DNA of 64,000 bases from Bdellovibrionia bacterium (GTDB lineage: Bacteria; Bdellovibrionota; Bdellovibrionia; Bdellovibrionales; JAGQZY01). Of the stretch, positions 8,468-15,089 are shown one piece after another. A model generated the notes under the pieces. It was not told the DNA's origin. It made no database searches and saw nothing but the letters and a program-made list of their open reading frames with translations. Each line of letters starts with the position of its first letter. The stretch's first letter is position 1. The position numbers were made by a program, and so were the translations under genes. The stretch is from the NCBI GenBank assembly GCA_030427805.1, contig JAUICP010000001.1, forward strand, positions 248,001 through 312,000, written 5' to 3'.

Positions 8468-9229
8468 TTGGAGACCTTAGATATTTCAGCAGAAAATTTA
8501 AAAATACAGTTCGGCAATGAACTCGTTCTTGATCACGTGAACCTGCAAATAGAGAAAGGGGAGCGGCTTGTGATAGTTGGCCCTAGTGGTCACGGTAAGT
8601 CGGTGCTTATAAAAGCCTTGGCAGGACTCTTGGAACCAACCGCAGGAAATGTTCGGGTCAAAGATCAGGACCTTTACAACACTGACATGGGGGCGAGGCA
8701 AGATTTAATGAAACGCATGGGCATGTTGTTTCAAAAAAATGCTTTGTTCGACTCTATGACGGTTCTCGAAAACGTGACCTTTCCTTTGAAACAAGTAACA
8801 GACTTTTCTGAAGAAGAAATTACAAAAAGAGCGAAGGGGTTTATTGAGGCTGTGGGACTTGATCATGCATTTGATCTCTTTCCTGATGAACTGTCTGGTG
8901 GAATGCAAAAGCGCTTAGGAATAGCTCGAGCCATGGCACTGAAACCAGAGATACTCTTTTATGATGATCCCACTGCCGGGCTCGACCCCATTACGAGTAG
9001 AAAAATCGTAGAACTGATTATAGATCTCAATATAGAAAACAGCGGAACAGTTGTTATGATCACCAATGATATGAATAGGGCCTTTCAAATAGCAGATAGA
9101 ATGGTCATGATTGTCGATCAAGAGCTCATCGTTACTGGCGATGAAATGCAAACTAAAGATCATTCTGACCCCAGAGTTAGACAATTTGTCATGGGTTTAC
9201 TAGAGGGACCTTTGAGGGTGGTCGAATGA
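8468..9229 (+). CDS. MCE/Mla-type ABC transporter ATPase 1 (degenerate catalytic residues)
   Basis: 253 residues, TTG start with GGGGAG upstream. MlaF-like ATPase: Walker A GPSGHGKS (about 38-45), signature LSGGMQKR. Two catalytic positions are altered: the Walker B reads FYDDPTAGLDP, with Asp instead of the catalytic Glu, and the H-loop reads MITNDM, with Asn instead of His. The signature is canonical. This is the pattern of the non-catalytic half of a heterodimeric ABC ATPase. It overlaps the second ATPase by 4 bp (ATGA). Confidence 0.9.
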   Translation: METLDISAENLKIQFGNELVLDHVNLQIEKGERLVIVGPSGHGKSVLIKALAGLLEPTAGNVRVKDQDLYNTDMGARQDLMKRMGMLFQKNALFDSMTVLENVTFPLKQVTDFSEEEITKRAKGFIEAVGLDHAFDLFPDELSGGMQKRLGIARAMALKPEILFYDDPTAGLDPITSRKIVELIIDLNIENSGTVVMITNDMNRAFQIADRMVMIVDQELIVTGDEMQTKDHSDPRVRQFVMGLLEGPLRVVE

Positions 9230-9978
9230 TTCGCTTCGAAAATATAAAGAAGAGTTTTGGAGATCGAACGATTCTTAAAGGAATAAGTTTCGAAATTAGA
9301 GAAGGAGAGATCGTATTTATTCTCGGTATGTCTGGAACGGGTAAGTCCGTGAGTCTAAAGAATATCGTGGGTCTATTAAAGCCGGATTCGGGAAAAATTT
9401 ATATCGATGGCGAGGAAATCTCCTCTTACACAGAGGAGCAAATGTTTCCGATTCGAAAGAAGTGCGGAATGGTTTTTCAACATCCCGCTCTTTTTGACTC
9501 CATGACAGTGTTTGAGAATATCGCATTTGGTTTGCGAAGACTCGAACAGCTCCCGGAAGAACAGGTTAAAGAACGGGTTCAAGAATGCTTACGTTTAGTA
9601 AATTTGGGTAATATCGGAGACAAACGCCCTGTTGAAATCAGTTATGGAATGCAAAAGCGAGTCAGTTTAGCGCGAACCTTGGCTTTGAATCCTCGCATAT
9701 TACTTTTTGATGAGCCAACCACGGGTTTAGATCCGGTGACCACAAATGCAATTAACGATTTAATTCAGGATCTCTCCCGAAGATTGAAGACGACTTCGTT
9801 AGTTGTCTCCCACGATATGCATTGCGCACTTGATATCGCCGACCGAATCATCGTACTTGATCAAGGTTACATATTAGAGGAAGGAACTCCCGAAGAGTTG
9901 ACGAAAAGCAGCGTTCCTCTGGTTAAGGATTTCTTAGAAGAAGCATTGGAGGCCAAATGGGGTCGTTCACTTATGTAA
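9226..9978 (+). CDS. MCE/Mla-type ABC transporter ATPase 2
   Basis: 250 residues, a paralogue of the gene before it. Walker A GMSGTGKS, Walker B LLFDEPTTGLDP and H-loop VVSHDM are intact, but the signature reads ISYGMQKR instead of LSGGQ. Its intact Walker motifs would face the intact signature of ATPase 1, while its poor signature would face the damaged Walker B of ATPase 1, giving one good and one degenerate ATP site per heterodimer (inference). Energises lipid movement through the downstream permeases. Confidence 0.9.
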   Translation: MIRFENIKKSFGDRTILKGISFEIREGEIVFILGMSGTGKSVSLKNIVGLLKPDSGKIYIDGEEISSYTEEQMFPIRKKCGMVFQHPALFDSMTVFENIAFGLRRLEQLPEEQVKERVQECLRLVNLGNIGDKRPVEISYGMQKRVSLARTLALNPRILLFDEPTTGLDPVTTNAINDLIQDLSRRLKTTSLVVSHDMHCALDIADRIIVLDQGYILEEGTPEELTKSSVPLVKDFLEEALEAKWGRSLM

Positions 9979-10724
9979 TAAACGACATTGGTGGCTGCCT
10001 TATATTTTTGGGGCAAATGTTTAAGACGGCCTTGGTGAGCCGCGTTCGCCGGTCGGAGGTCTTTGAGCAAATATGGAAAGTCACGATCCAAAGTCTTTCT
10101 ACGACGGCCCTTGCCGGTTTTTTTGTGGGTGCGATCATGACAGTTCAATTTACTCTTCAAGTTAAGCAATTTGGAGCTTTAGGGTTTTTAGGGGGACTGG
10201 CCACCAGTGGAACCGTTAGAGAGGTGGGCCCCCTCTTAATTGCATTTATGTTGAGTGGAAAAGTTGGCGCCTACACATCGGCAGAGCTTGGGACAATGAA
10301 GGTTACAGAGCAAATCGATGCAATTCGTTGTTTGGGGGCTAATCCGTTTCAAGAAATTATTTTTCCTCGATTTGTTGGTATAATTGTTTCTAGCTTCTTC
10401 CTTTTGGTTGCGGGTTTGGCAATGTCTATTTTTGGTGGCTTACTCATGGGGATCGTCTTTTCAGGGATCACGTCCCAAGAATATTTACGACATATTCCAA
10501 CGATCGTTACAGGTTACTCCATTGTTTCGGGTCTGTTTAAGTGCCTTGTTTTTGCCTTTGTCTTAGCGGCTGTATGTACTTACAAAGGGTATACGGCCTC
10601 TGGTGGTGCAAAAGGGGTCGGTAACGCTGTCATCTCGACAGCTGTAACAACAATGGTTGGTTTAGTTATTTTTGACTGGTTAACAAGTTTGATTTCGGAT
10701 TCATTTTTGAAGGTGTTTTACTAG
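9957..10724 (+). CDS. MlaE-like permease 1
   Basis: 255 residues with about five membrane spans and the MlaE core: GAIMTVQFTLQV, REVGPLLIAFMLSGKVGAYTSAELGTMKVTEQIDA, then FPRFVGIIVSSFFLL. Inner-membrane subunit of an MCE lipid transporter. The ATG at 9957 has GGAGG upstream and lies 22 bp inside the second ATPase gene, so translation is coupled. Confidence 0.9.
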   Translation: MGSFTYVINDIGGCLIFLGQMFKTALVSRVRRSEVFEQIWKVTIQSLSTTALAGFFVGAIMTVQFTLQVKQFGALGFLGGLATSGTVREVGPLLIAFMLSGKVGAYTSAELGTMKVTEQIDAIRCLGANPFQEIIFPRFVGIIVSSFFLLVAGLAMSIFGGLLMGIVFSGITSQEYLRHIPTIVTGYSIVSGLFKCLVFAFVLAAVCTYKGYTASGGAKGVGNAVISTAVTTMVGLVIFDWLTSLISDSFLKVFY

Positions 10725-11497
10725 TGGTTACATATATTGGAAGCTCCGTTATACAAGCCTATTACTTTGCTGTTGAGTTTATTAATCTCATAGTAAATAC
10801 CGGCATTCAGGTTGTTAAGCCACCCTACAAAATTTCTGATATTTTTAAACAGATTTACCTCATTGGAAATAAGAGTGTCGTTATTATCGCATTCTGTGTC
10901 GCCTCAGCCGCGGTAGTAACGATCATTGAATCTTCGTTTCACATGAAGATAGTCATTCAAAATGATTCTTTGGTTCCAGGATTTGCTAGCTTACTTATCC
11001 TGAGGGAACTTGGGGTTGTGGTTATGGCTCTTCTTTTAACCTCCAAAATTGGCGCGGGAATGACCGCGGAAATCGGTTCAATGAAGATAACTGAGCAGAT
11101 CGAAGCTCTTAAGATGTTGGGAATCGACCCCGTGAACTTCTTGGTAGTTCCTAGACTTATTGGCTGTACAATTGCTGGCGCTTTACTCAGTATCATCGCA
11201 AATATTGTCTGCCTCACTTCTGCTTACTTTGTTAGCCAATTATACCTTGGTTTTACTTCTGGGAGCTTTTTAACAGCGATGAGGACTTTCGTTGAGTTTA
11301 ATGACTTAATTTTTGCGACTATAAAAGGGGCAGTATTTTGCTCGGTAATACCACTCATTAGTTGCTTTCATGGCTTTCGCTGTGAGGCTGGTGCCGAAGG
11401 TGTAGGTACCGCAACCACCCAAAGTGTTGTCCATTCTTCGATCGCGATTATTATACTAGACTTCATTCTTTCGTATATATTTACTTACTTTTATTAG
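10724..11497 (+). CDS. MlaE-like permease 2
   Basis: 257 residues, a divergent paralogue of the preceding permease: RELGVVVMALLLTSKIGAG followed by EIGSMKITEQIEALKMLG matches the same MlaE core. GTG start overlapping the previous TAG by one base. Two different permeases beside two different ATPases suggest an obligate heteromeric inner-membrane core, unlike the homodimeric E. coli MlaFE (inference). Confidence 0.88.
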   Translation: MVTYIGSSVIQAYYFAVEFINLIVNTGIQVVKPPYKISDIFKQIYLIGNKSVVIIAFCVASAAVVTIIESSFHMKIVIQNDSLVPGFASLLILRELGVVVMALLLTSKIGAGMTAEIGSMKITEQIEALKMLGIDPVNFLVVPRLIGCTIAGALLSIIANIVCLTSAYFVSQLYLGFTSGSFLTAMRTFVEFNDLIFATIKGAVFCSVIPLISCFHGFRCEAGAEGVGTATTQSVVHSSIAIIILDFILSYIFTYFY

Positions 11498-11549
11498 CCT
11501 TTGATTCTTTAGTTGGTCTTATCAGGTTATCCTTATATTGAGGGACTTT

Positions 11550-12323
11550 ATGAAACCAGAAACTAAAGTTGGATTTCTATTTATTACTGCGATTATTATG
11601 GTTGCTGGCTTTGCCTACTATCTAGGGGTTCTCAACCCTTTTAAAGATACCTATGAATTAAAATTACTATATAACTTTGCAGGTGGCATAGAAGTTGGTT
11701 CACCGGTCCGTGCTATGGGAATAAAAGTTGGTCAGGTTAAGAGTATAGACTTTACTCCAGGCGAAAAGTGGATGGATGAAGAAGTAAAGCTCACTATTCA
11801 GGTGCAAATTGAAAAGAAAGCTTGGAACTCAATAAAAAAGGACAGCAAATTTTATATAAATTTAGCCGGAGTCATTGGTGAGAAGTATATAGAAGTGACG
11901 CCTGGAACATCTGACGCCCTTGGTTTTCAAAGTGGTGAGAAGGCTCGAGGAATCGATCCTCCAAGAATCGATCAGCTTTTAAGTCAGGGTTACGCCTTAG
12001 CGGGAAAAATTTTGGAAATTGTTGAAAAGAATGAGGGTACATTTACAGATACCTTAGGAAAGATGAACAATCTGGTGCAAAACCTAAACAGGACCTTAGT
12101 ACTAATTGAAAAACTCTCTAAAAAAGAAGATTTCAAGAAGATCAGCAAAAACCTTGCCTTGATGTCAGATGATTTATTGATTTTGACCTCTCGGTTAAGG
12201 GGGCCTGAGGCGGATGAAACTCTAAAACTCCTCAGAGAACTCCTGTTTCGCCTTAAAGATTTGGATGAAAAGTCCATTAGAAAATTCCTGCAAGACGAAG
12301 GAATCCGCGCAAAAATCTTTTGA
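11550..12323 (+). CDS. MlaD-like MCE domain protein
   Basis: 257 residues from the ATG at 11550 (GAGGG upstream; an in-frame TTG at 11538 is less likely). One N-terminal membrane span (VGFLFITAIIMVAGFAYYLG), then a single MCE domain (about 40-120, with AGGIEVGSPVRAMGIKVGQV and AGVIGEKYIEVTPG), then a long helical tail. MCE proteins form hexameric rings that bind and pass lipids across the periplasm. Only one MCE gene serves the doubled ABC core. Confidence 0.9.
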   Translation: MKPETKVGFLFITAIIMVAGFAYYLGVLNPFKDTYELKLLYNFAGGIEVGSPVRAMGIKVGQVKSIDFTPGEKWMDEEVKLTIQVQIEKKAWNSIKKDSKFYINLAGVIGEKYIEVTPGTSDALGFQSGEKARGIDPPRIDQLLSQGYALAGKILEIVEKNEGTFTDTLGKMNNLVQNLNRTLVLIEKLSKKEDFKKISKNLALMSDDLLILTSRLRGPEADETLKLLRELLFRLKDLDEKSIRKFLQDEGIRAKIF

Positions 12324-12375: not shown

Positions 12376-14469
12376 ATGAAACGGCTTCTTTTAATTATTA
12401 CTCTCACTTTTTTTTCTGCTATTTCCCTTGATGCAAAGTCTTTATCGCGGGCCCAAGAAACTTTTATTAAAAATATCAAATCTAAAATGGCAACACGATC
12501 TCGCGACAAGGTTCCGCAGATCGTTTTACGAAGAATCGCTTTTGAAAAAAAGAGGTCGAAGGGTCAGTCTTCAGCTTTTATTTTTGAACTCTATGCTCTC
12601 GCTATAAATTCTAGTTTTTCATCGAGATCAGAAAAAGAAAGCGGAAGAATTTTAAGTCAACTTAAGAAGGACCTTAAGTCTTTGCAGGGCATTCAATCAG
12701 TAGAACTTATGCCTTTGTTCGAGCTATTTTCTGACCATGAAAAAAACAAAGCTTTATTAGACCGTTTACTCAGTGATTTAATTAAAGATGCCGAAGTTCC
12801 CCTAACTCTGAAAAATCACCTTTATCCAACTTATATTAATCGGCTCGTAATTGTGCCCAGAGATAAGATCGTTGCGTTTGGAGAATGGCTGCGACTCGTT
12901 AGAGAGAATGAAAAGTCATCTTCTTATGAGGAAGCTTTGGCTCGTATTTACTTGTCTAATGAGTTTATTGAGCAATCTCGCCCTGAAGAAGCTCTTGATC
13001 AAAAAGAAGCGGCCATTTCAATTGTTGAAACTCAGCTCAATGAAAAAAAACAAATAGATACGCTGACCTTTATCGAGTTGTTGAGAATTCTCAATAAAGA
13101 ACAACAGAATACGTTAGCGCAAAAGTTATTAGGATTTTTTAATGATCAAATTAAAGAGCGAAGTGAAGAAGAAAGACGTTTTATAAGAGAAAGCACGGCT
13201 CTTGTAGAGTTCGAAATATTCTATCCAGAGAAAAATTTCGAAAGTATATTGGCTCTAATTCCAACAATATCTGCAAAAATAACGAAATTAAATAAAGAGC
13301 GAGCGGGCAGTCTGTTTGCAAAGATCTTGGACATATATTCCGAAGCGCCAGAGCTAACCCACCTCAAGGAGATACTAGAGGCCTTTGTTTTGGTTTTTGG
13401 TAAGAAAGTGACTGGACTAAAAGCGGAGACAAGAGAGCTTTTATTGGATAATTTGGTGGCTTTGGCTTCATCAATCGATAGCAAACGATCTTATAATTAC
13501 TTAGACCCACTTTACCCTCCGATACAGGCGCTCTTAAATCAACCAGGAGCGATCGAAAAACCAAACTATGCTCTTTTGTTAGGAGAAATCTTTCAAAGGG
13601 TTGGAAGGGAATCTCAGGCCCTTGAGATCTTTAGAAACTGCTACATCCGAAAGTTTGTTGGTTTCAAACTCAAAAAAGATCACGTTAAGTGCTTGCGCCT
13701 AGAAACCTATTTATTAATTCGTTCGGGAAAATCAGAGCGTTACGAGAATTTGGCTCCTAAAATTGAACAGCTCCTTAAGACCTACAATTTTGAAGACCCA
13801 GTAGAGAAGACACGCTTGCGAGTCAGTGTCGCCTTAAATCACCTTATAAACTCTCGGTTCAAAGAAACACTTGATGTCTTAGACAGTATTAAGTCGAGCC
13901 TTTCGGGCGGCGAAAATGTTTATTTTAAGAGTATCTATGACATTTATTCAGCGGCTGTTTTCAATGCCACAGGTAAAGAAGACGAGGCTTTAAAGCGGGC
14001 AGATGAAATAGAAAACCTCTTTGTTGCTCAATTTGGAAAAAATGTATCAACATTGAATATTCCATATAGAATTCGCACAGAGTCTTTCCTTCTAAAGAAA
14101 GATGTAAAGCAGGCCAATCAAGCCTATGTGGAAATGCAAAGGTTTTATCGACTGAACAAACCCTATATTCATTTTGATAGGGTGCTAGGGCTTTTACGGG
14201 GCCTATCCTTAGCTTACTTAATAAAGTCGGACTCGCTGGTTGATGAATTGGAAAATGATTTTGAGCAGTATTGTGGTCTTGGTGATCAATATGAATCCTA
14301 TAAAGATCTCATCGAGCTATGGAAAGTCCTCTTTAACGAACAGAAGACGGGAAAAAAGGAGCCGGCAAAGACGACGGCCCTTATGCAAAAAATTGCGAAG
14401 AATTTTGGAGAGAACAATTTATTGGTTTTTATGAATAAAAAATTTGTTAAAGTACTTACAGAAAAGTGA
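12376..14469 (+). CDS. large exported helical-repeat protein, unknown family
   Basis: 697 residues. Signal peptide MKRLLLIITLTFFSAISLDA. The rest is almost wholly alpha-helical and reads like degenerate TPR/solenoid repeats (for example LGEIFQRVGRESQALEIF near residue 400). No enzymatic motif and few cysteines. It follows the MCE operon by 52 bp on the same strand and runs into a small outer-membrane barrel, so it may be a periplasmic partner of the lipid transporter; that link rests on position only. Confidence 0.7.
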   Translation: MKRLLLIITLTFFSAISLDAKSLSRAQETFIKNIKSKMATRSRDKVPQIVLRRIAFEKKRSKGQSSAFIFELYALAINSSFSSRSEKESGRILSQLKKDLKSLQGIQSVELMPLFELFSDHEKNKALLDRLLSDLIKDAEVPLTLKNHLYPTYINRLVIVPRDKIVAFGEWLRLVRENEKSSSYEEALARIYLSNEFIEQSRPEEALDQKEAAISIVETQLNEKKQIDTLTFIELLRILNKEQQNTLAQKLLGFFNDQIKERSEEERRFIRESTALVEFEIFYPEKNFESILALIPTISAKITKLNKERAGSLFAKILDIYSEAPELTHLKEILEAFVLVFGKKVTGLKAETRELLLDNLVALASSIDSKRSYNYLDPLYPPIQALLNQPGAIEKPNYALLLGEIFQRVGRESQALEIFRNCYIRKFVGFKLKKDHVKCLRLETYLLIRSGKSERYENLAPKIEQLLKTYNFEDPVEKTRLRVSVALNHLINSRFKETLDVLDSIKSSLSGGENVYFKSIYDIYSAAVFNATGKEDEALKRADEIENLFVAQFGKNVSTLNIPYRIRTESFLLKKDVKQANQAYVEMQRFYRLNKPYIHFDRVLGLLRGLSLAYLIKSDSLVDELENDFEQYCGLGDQYESYKDLIELWKVLFNEQKTGKKEPAKTTALMQKIAKNFGENNLLVFMNKKFVKVLTEK

Positions 14470-14477
14470 GGAAACCA

Positions 14478-15089
14478 ATGAAAACTCAAAAGCTAACGTT
14501 ACTTCTAATAATCCTCTTCTTCTCAGTTCAAGCACAAACGGCGATACTTGTAGAAGATGGCGGAAAGCCCGTATCAAGAACTTCACAAAGTTATTCAAAA
14601 GAGGCGGTAGATGGAGATTCGTTTCGTTCTTTAAGGCGGGCCGGATTAGGTCTGAGCCTAAGCGGACCGGTTGGAAGTTTCGGAGCCCTTCTCGATCTCA
14701 ATTTTTCTTCAAGATGGACAGGATCTTTGGCCTATGGAGGTTCATTGGATTTTCAATCCTTTGTTGTTCAGGCCAAGCATTACTTTACGTCGACTCGATT
14801 TGCTCCCTATTTTGGTTTTGGCTATACGCGATGGTTTAAGAAAAAATCGGGTGTGCCTTTAGAAGACACCACTCCCAGCTATCTTTTTACTGAATTTCTC
14901 TCTGACGAACAAAAAAGTGAGGGCGGCTTTGCCGAAAATCTTCTTTTTTCGAGTATCGGAGTACAGTTTTTTCAGACCAAAGGTGAGTGGGCGGGATATA
15001 GTTTCGGTCTCGAGGTCAATTTATTGATGGATCCGGTGGATTTAGTGGTAGCTCCCACTGGAGCGTTCAATATGTTCTATTATTTCTAG
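14478..15089 (+). CDS. small outer-membrane beta-barrel protein
   Basis: 203 residues from the ATG at 14478 (GAGGAAA upstream; a GTG four codons earlier overlaps that site). Signal peptide MKTQKLTLLLIILFFSVQAQ. The mature chain alternates polar and hydrophobic residues with many aromatic belts (FAPYFGFGYTRWF) and ends in FNMFYYF, the C-terminal aromatic signature recognised by the BAM complex. No family name recognised. It begins 8 bp after the stop of the preceding exported protein. Confidence 0.72.
   Translation: MKTQKLTLLLIILFFSVQAQTAILVEDGGKPVSRTSQSYSKEAVDGDSFRSLRRAGLGLSLSGPVGSFGALLDLNFSSRWTGSLAYGGSLDFQSFVVQAKHYFTSTRFAPYFGFGYTRWFKKKSGVPLEDTTPSYLFTEFLSDEQKSEGGFAENLLFSSIGVQFFQTKGEWAGYSFGLEVNLLMDPVDLVVAPTGAFNMFYYF

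Follow-up and report, generated by a model that had tools for sequence, protein, structure and literature searches.

A candidate asymmetric MCE transporter of Bdellovibrionota with two unlike ATPases and one degenerate ATP site

Transporters built around MCE proteins move lipids across the diderm envelope, and the direction of transport by MlaFEDB is itself debated. In a 64,000-nucleotide stretch of a Bdellovibrionia bacterium genome (assembly GCA_030427805.1, contig JAUICP010000001.1, positions 248,001 to 312,000; hereafter the window), one operon encodes two MlaF-like ATP-binding cassette (ABC) ATPases, A1 and A2, two MlaE-family permeases, E1 and E2, and a single MCE protein, D. Why should one operon carry two ATPases, each with altered catalytic motifs? 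A reading of the letters alone (the sequence-only reading) had proposed that the defects are complementary and spare one of the two ATP sites of a heterodimer. We assign a probability of about 0.86 to the view that the operon encodes an MCE (type VIII, MlaFED-like) lipid ABC transporter in which A1 and A2 would form an obligate ATPase heterodimer on an E1:E2 permease heterodimer, with one hydrolyzing and one degenerate site; lipid as the probable cargo is suggested by the family.

Two ATPases with complementary motif changes

All five genes, and every feature of them given below, are on the + strand, between positions 8468 and 12323. Coding overlaps join A1 (8468..9229, 253 aa), A2 (9226..9978, 250 aa), E1 (9957..10724, 255 aa) and the second permease E2 (10724..11497, 257 aa), and these are followed by D (11538..12323, 261 aa). 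The profile matches agreed with this gene content, which the sequence-only reading had recognized. A1 and A2, about 38% identical to each other, are both ABC ATPases of the MlaF/MceG-like type expected of an MCE transporter: the top NCBIfam model was MlaF for A1, and MlaF was among the best for A2, with both scores below the MlaF equivalog cut-off. Similarly, the best solved chains for A1 were those of MlaF/MceG, and MlaF was the top chain for the A2 profile. E1 and E2 scored 199 and 204 bits, respectively, against Pfam MlaE (PF02405), which places both among MlaE permeases; MlaE/YrbE chains in the PDB matched E1, and fixed residue differences separate the two permeases (e.g., Gly/Pro at E1 position 79). 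The single MCE domain of D was identified by Pfam MlaD (PF02470; 64.8 bits, residues 38–123). It is preceded by an N-terminal transmembrane helix (about 7–32) and followed by C-terminal helices (about 144–260), and the predicted structure consisted of a transmembrane helix, an MCE barrel and lower-confidence helices (mean predicted local distance difference test score, pLDDT, 74.1).

When A1 was aligned to solved MlaF, its Walker A (GPSGHGKS), Q-loop and signature (LSGGM, residues 142–146, 8891..8905) were intact. Asp167 (codon 8966..8968) replaces the catalytic Walker B Glu (FYDDP; YDDP vs YDEP/FDEP in MlaF), and Asn200 (codon 9065..9067) replaces the H-loop His (ITNDM; TND vs SHD). In A2, Walker A, Walker B (LFDEP, Glu163, codon 9712..9714) and the H-loop (VSHDM, His196, codon 9811..9813) are intact, and the signature reads ISYGM (9637..9651), Tyr140 standing in place of the first Gly (L-S-G-G-M to I-S-Y-G-M). 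These are the substitutions that had been noticed from the letters. Each composite ATP site is built from the Walker A, Walker B and H-loop motifs of one nucleotide-binding domain (NBD) and the signature of its partner (PMC7756269). By this geometry, A1 Asp167 and Asn200 and the degenerate signature of A2 fall in the same composite site and leave the other intact, as had been supposed. The combination is that of a degenerate site: one NBD has no Walker B Glu, and its partner has an altered signature. The second composite site was canonical, with A1 SGG and A2 Glu and His in all complete sequences. The Walker A Lys and Q-loop Gln were invariant in A1 and A2, and ATP binding is therefore still expected at both sites.

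Conservation and ancestry of the pair

The survey covered 39 relatives, 80 named loci and 289 genomes of Bdellovibrionota, from which 98 distinct operons were compared after removal of duplicates; canonical MlaF recovered at the search threshold (family f18 and others) was left out. As far as contigs allow, the gene order A1-A2-E1-E2(-D) was kept in 93 of the 98 operons, with one MCE gene per operon, and among 94 A1-A2 pairs the spacing was ≤50 nt in 79, the genes overlapping in 68. The poor signature of A2 recurred in the relatives: DEP, the H-loop His and a Tyr/Phe in place of the first signature Gly were found in every complete A2 (93/93). No complete operon A1 lacked SGG. At the H-loop, 92 operon A1 sequences had Asn (82), Ser (8), Thr (1) or His (1), the His thus being lost in 91, and their last Walker B residue was Asp in 72 and Glu in 20; 72 of the 92 lacked both the Walker B Glu and the H-loop His. 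As a control, canonical MlaF homologues of Bdellovibrionota were intact at all key positions (14/14). Every complete operon that was examined across Bdellovibrionota thus showed the asymmetry, and only the extent of A1 decay varied. Because of this recurrence, and because canonical MlaF of the same phylum is intact, we conclude that the motif asymmetry of A1 and A2 is real and not due to chance.

It might still be without mechanistic meaning, the substitutions being functionally neutral and both sites hydrolyzing ATP. Asp for Glu is a conservative change with which slow hydrolysis is possible (PMC7756269), and Glu persists in 20 of the 92 A1 sequences. However, the H-loop His is also missing from all but one A1, all complete A2 carry a bulky aromatic residue in the signature, and degenerate sites of other ABC families show similar combinations (PMC7756269). 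Drift, moreover, would not restrict all losses to one site, and we hold neutrality to be very unlikely.

A2 of the sister genome (L072:13-744 and L078) terminates close to a contig edge with an unrelated tail, IEHNL standing at the H-loop, probably through misassembly. The pair was not present in every genome; some members of the order and the large family f18 showed only canonical MlaF. Bdellovibrio bacteriovorus carries the operon in a named complete genome (L081). For the distribution beyond Bdellovibrionota there is one genome-wide scan, of which the 80 top loci were kept; it does not imply absence elsewhere. Two bins labeled as other taxa, Streptomyces griseus (L135) and Nitrosovibrio (L147), carry the Bdellovibrionota operon and are probably misnamed.

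Apart from truncated contigs, A1 and A2 were found together, and neither was intact in any paired operon. The pairing is conserved among the relatives, none of which had either ATPase alone with all residues intact. Apparent cases of A2 without A1 were rejected, in G263, G248 and G286 as contig ends and in G009 and G268 on finding A1 elsewhere in the same genome. In G009, A1 lies beside two large ABC-exporter-like genes (L050:2280-6773), and A2-E1-E2-D is on another contig (L233). In one operon (L119:7747-9459) the C-terminus of A2 is fused to E1 in a natural protein of 570 aa. A linker several tens of residues long joins the two parts, so this is a fusion and more than a simple frameshift of overlapping ends.

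In the phylogenetic tree, A2 formed one fully supported clade adjoining the canonical MlaF of the phylum, and a fully supported branch split A1 and its solo paralogues from A2, MlaF and MceG. Recent duplication within the lineage as the source of both A1 and A2 was unsupported, as A2 grouped with canonical MlaF and A1 had its own branch; A1 branches are long, so the depth of A1 is unsure. Solo A1 paralogues were observed away from MCE genes (L059:6048-6803, and L060, L068, L069, L070, L128, L129, L133 and L136). They keep the Asp in Walker B, their H-loop is variable and often has His, and most form a clade nested in the operon A1 lineage.

Such solo paralogues, together with the unlinking of A1 from the operon in two genomes, would fit an arrangement in which A2 is the motor and A1 is a non-hydrolyzing regulatory or structural subunit, or is swapped with the paralogues so that the core changes with conditions. 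An A2 homodimer, however, would pair the A2 Walker motifs with the Tyr-bearing signature, and the strict conservation of SGG in A1 points to its use in A2 catalysis. We consider a transporter driven by A2 in this way unlikely.

The probable A1:A2 heterodimer and its proposed mechanism

We favor the heterodimer because either homodimer would have two damaged sites, and because the residues that only the good site of the heterodimer would need are invariant. A1 and A2 could instead serve two separate homodimeric transporters (A1:A1 and A2:A2) encoded in one operon, with two weakened sites each and perhaps with E1:E1 and E2:E2 permeases; the two ATPases are distinct proteins. Against this, both sites of each homodimer would be impaired and none would be canonical, although throughout the phylum there is no variation in the residues that make up precisely one good site in a heterodimer. 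Nor is either operon ATPase retained alone, and each operon has a single MCE gene. Separate homodimers thus appear quite unlikely.

The proposed A1:A2 heterodimer was modeled with AlphaFold2 as a tether, in which A1-A2 of L107 was read through one stop codon; this is a modeling device and not a claimed protein. The alignment had 10 rows, one of which (the A2 row of L153) was partly misplaced; a deep alignment was dropped, as MAFFT put A1 rows on the A2 half. With these 10 sequences, the tether was predicted as a closed NBD sandwich (pLDDT 83.8, predicted template modeling score, pTM, 0.66). In VIA-align 2, both of its halves aligned with tandem-NBD structures, many of them ATP-bound, including ATP-bound DppD (8wdb_D; Z 38.9, root-mean-square deviation (rmsd) 2.9 Å, 485 residues) and 8s7v_K (Z 37.9, rmsd 2.3 Å, 474 residues). 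The model indicates that A1 and A2 can form the usual closed sandwich, and it is silent on whether they prefer each other over homodimers. Co-retention, linkage and the tethered model are each consistent with A1:A2 pairing.

By analogy with TAP, TM287/288, CFTR and MlaFEDB, a likely mechanism can be outlined. A1:A2, seated under an E1:E2 heterodimer, would drive a D ring that is most probably hexameric, like that of MlaD. In the ATP-closed dimer, hydrolysis would occur at the site that combines the Walker A, Walker B and H-loop of A2 with the signature of A1. The site made of the corresponding A1 motifs with the A2 signature would bind ATP, with slow or no hydrolysis, and would probably hold it. 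Each stroke would thus cost one ATP, with the degenerate site keeping the dimer partly shut, in the manner of TAP, TM287/288 or CFTR, and lipid would move between the cavity of E1:E2 and the ring of D with its helical tail.

Several points weigh against this picture. The presumed pairing and the presumed hydrolyzing site are read from sequence and from an A1-A2 model that is a forced tether. The strength of degeneration varies, as A1 of one operon (L064) has the H-loop His and 20 A1 keep the Walker B Glu, and Glu-to-Asp sites can still hydrolyze slowly (PMC7756269). The A1 paralogues away from MCE genes may mean that A1 has other partners.

Known systems, a second MCE operon and neighboring genes

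Among known systems, MlaFEDB of E. coli, A. baumannii and P. aeruginosa is alike in that an MlaF-type ATPase, an MlaE-type permease and a single-domain MCE protein are encoded together, with clear matches to the solved chains. It is homodimeric, as the sequence-only reading held, and contains MlaB and two copies each of a single MlaF and a single MlaE, whereas here there are two ATPases, two permeases and one degenerate site. Mce1 (YrbE1A/YrbE1B/MceG) is an MCE transporter with a heterodimeric MlaE-type permease and a homodimeric ATPase (PMC9882608); its MceG homodimer is encoded outside the operon and its ring is made of six different Mce proteins, in contrast to the two ATPases and one MCE gene here. 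In TAP (ABCB2/B3), TM287/288 and CFTR (ABCC7), changes of the Walker B Glu and/or H-loop in one NBD and of the signature in the other likewise converge on a single composite site; other ABC families commonly contain degenerate sites (PMC7756269). Those proteins are exporters of type I or a channel, and their membrane domains are unrelated to an MlaE-type permease with an MCE ring. DppD and Rv1281c of OppABCD similarly bring two NBDs, tandem or unlike, into one bacterial transporter, but these are peptide importers, also with unrelated membrane domains. The sequence-only reading had called an asymmetric MCE transporter mechanistically new. This stands for the proposed heterodimeric, half-degenerate ATPase pair and not for the heterodimeric permease, which is already known from Mce1 (PMC9882608).

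In the open-licence literature we found no description of a two-ATPase MCE operon and no link of MCE transport to Bdellovibrio, and the main text of a B. bacteriovorus transposon-sequencing (Tn-seq) paper mentions no MCE or Mla gene. With a natural version that has only one working ATP site, it can be asked how many ATPs each lipid step consumes and whether asymmetry sets direction, and the presence of the operon in B. bacteriovorus offers a tractable system. A lipid route specific to the phylum, which includes predators living inside other bacteria, is possible.

The relatives also document, in graded natural steps, how a degenerate site forms. On the A1 tree, the Walker B Glu/Asp position requires three changes. 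Loss of the signature and of the H-loop His, in contrast, is close to universal, so the Glu seems to have been lost after them. A second conserved MCE operon, gE-gF-gD, was observed in 27 of 39 genomes (own and relatives; own copy L075:5378-7892 on contig C8, also L248–L267). Its only local ATPase lacks the Q-loop Gln, signature and H-loop His, and in many cases Walker A as well. Outside the genus the permease is 54–67% conserved, vs 32–43% for the ATPase, which is possibly a pseudo-ATPase in an MCE transporter. Taken jointly, we suggest, at slightly less than even odds, that Bdellovibrionota have an asymmetric MCE class, with A1:A2 on E1:E2 and one ATP per stroke, whose relatives preserve the order of decay (the signature and H-loop before the Walker B Glu, which went in more than one step), and that together with the second operon the MCE machines of these bacteria would form a range, with full ATP drive at one end, half drive in between and possibly ATP independence at the other.

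On the outer-membrane side, MlaC (PF05494), MlaA (PF04333) and MlaB/STAS_2 (PF13466) had no match in the assembly to which the window belongs (98.9% complete), so the genome does not show the set of the Mla pathway proper (MlaA-MlaC-MlaFEDB). The two ATPases and two permeases per operon would also argue against the homodimeric Mla arrangement. Directly after D lies a gene for a 697-aa protein of no recognized family (12376..14469, + strand), which separates D from the outer-membrane candidate described next. The 697-aa protein is probably outside the transporter core, since no homologue was found at the same place in other operons. A small protein of 207 aa follows (14466..15089, + strand); with its signal-like N-terminus and C-terminal FYYF, it looks like an outer-membrane beta-barrel and, with a homologue often present after D in relatives, is a candidate outer-membrane partner. 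A small outer-membrane-like protein was found after D in 36 of the 63 operons with enough downstream sequence.

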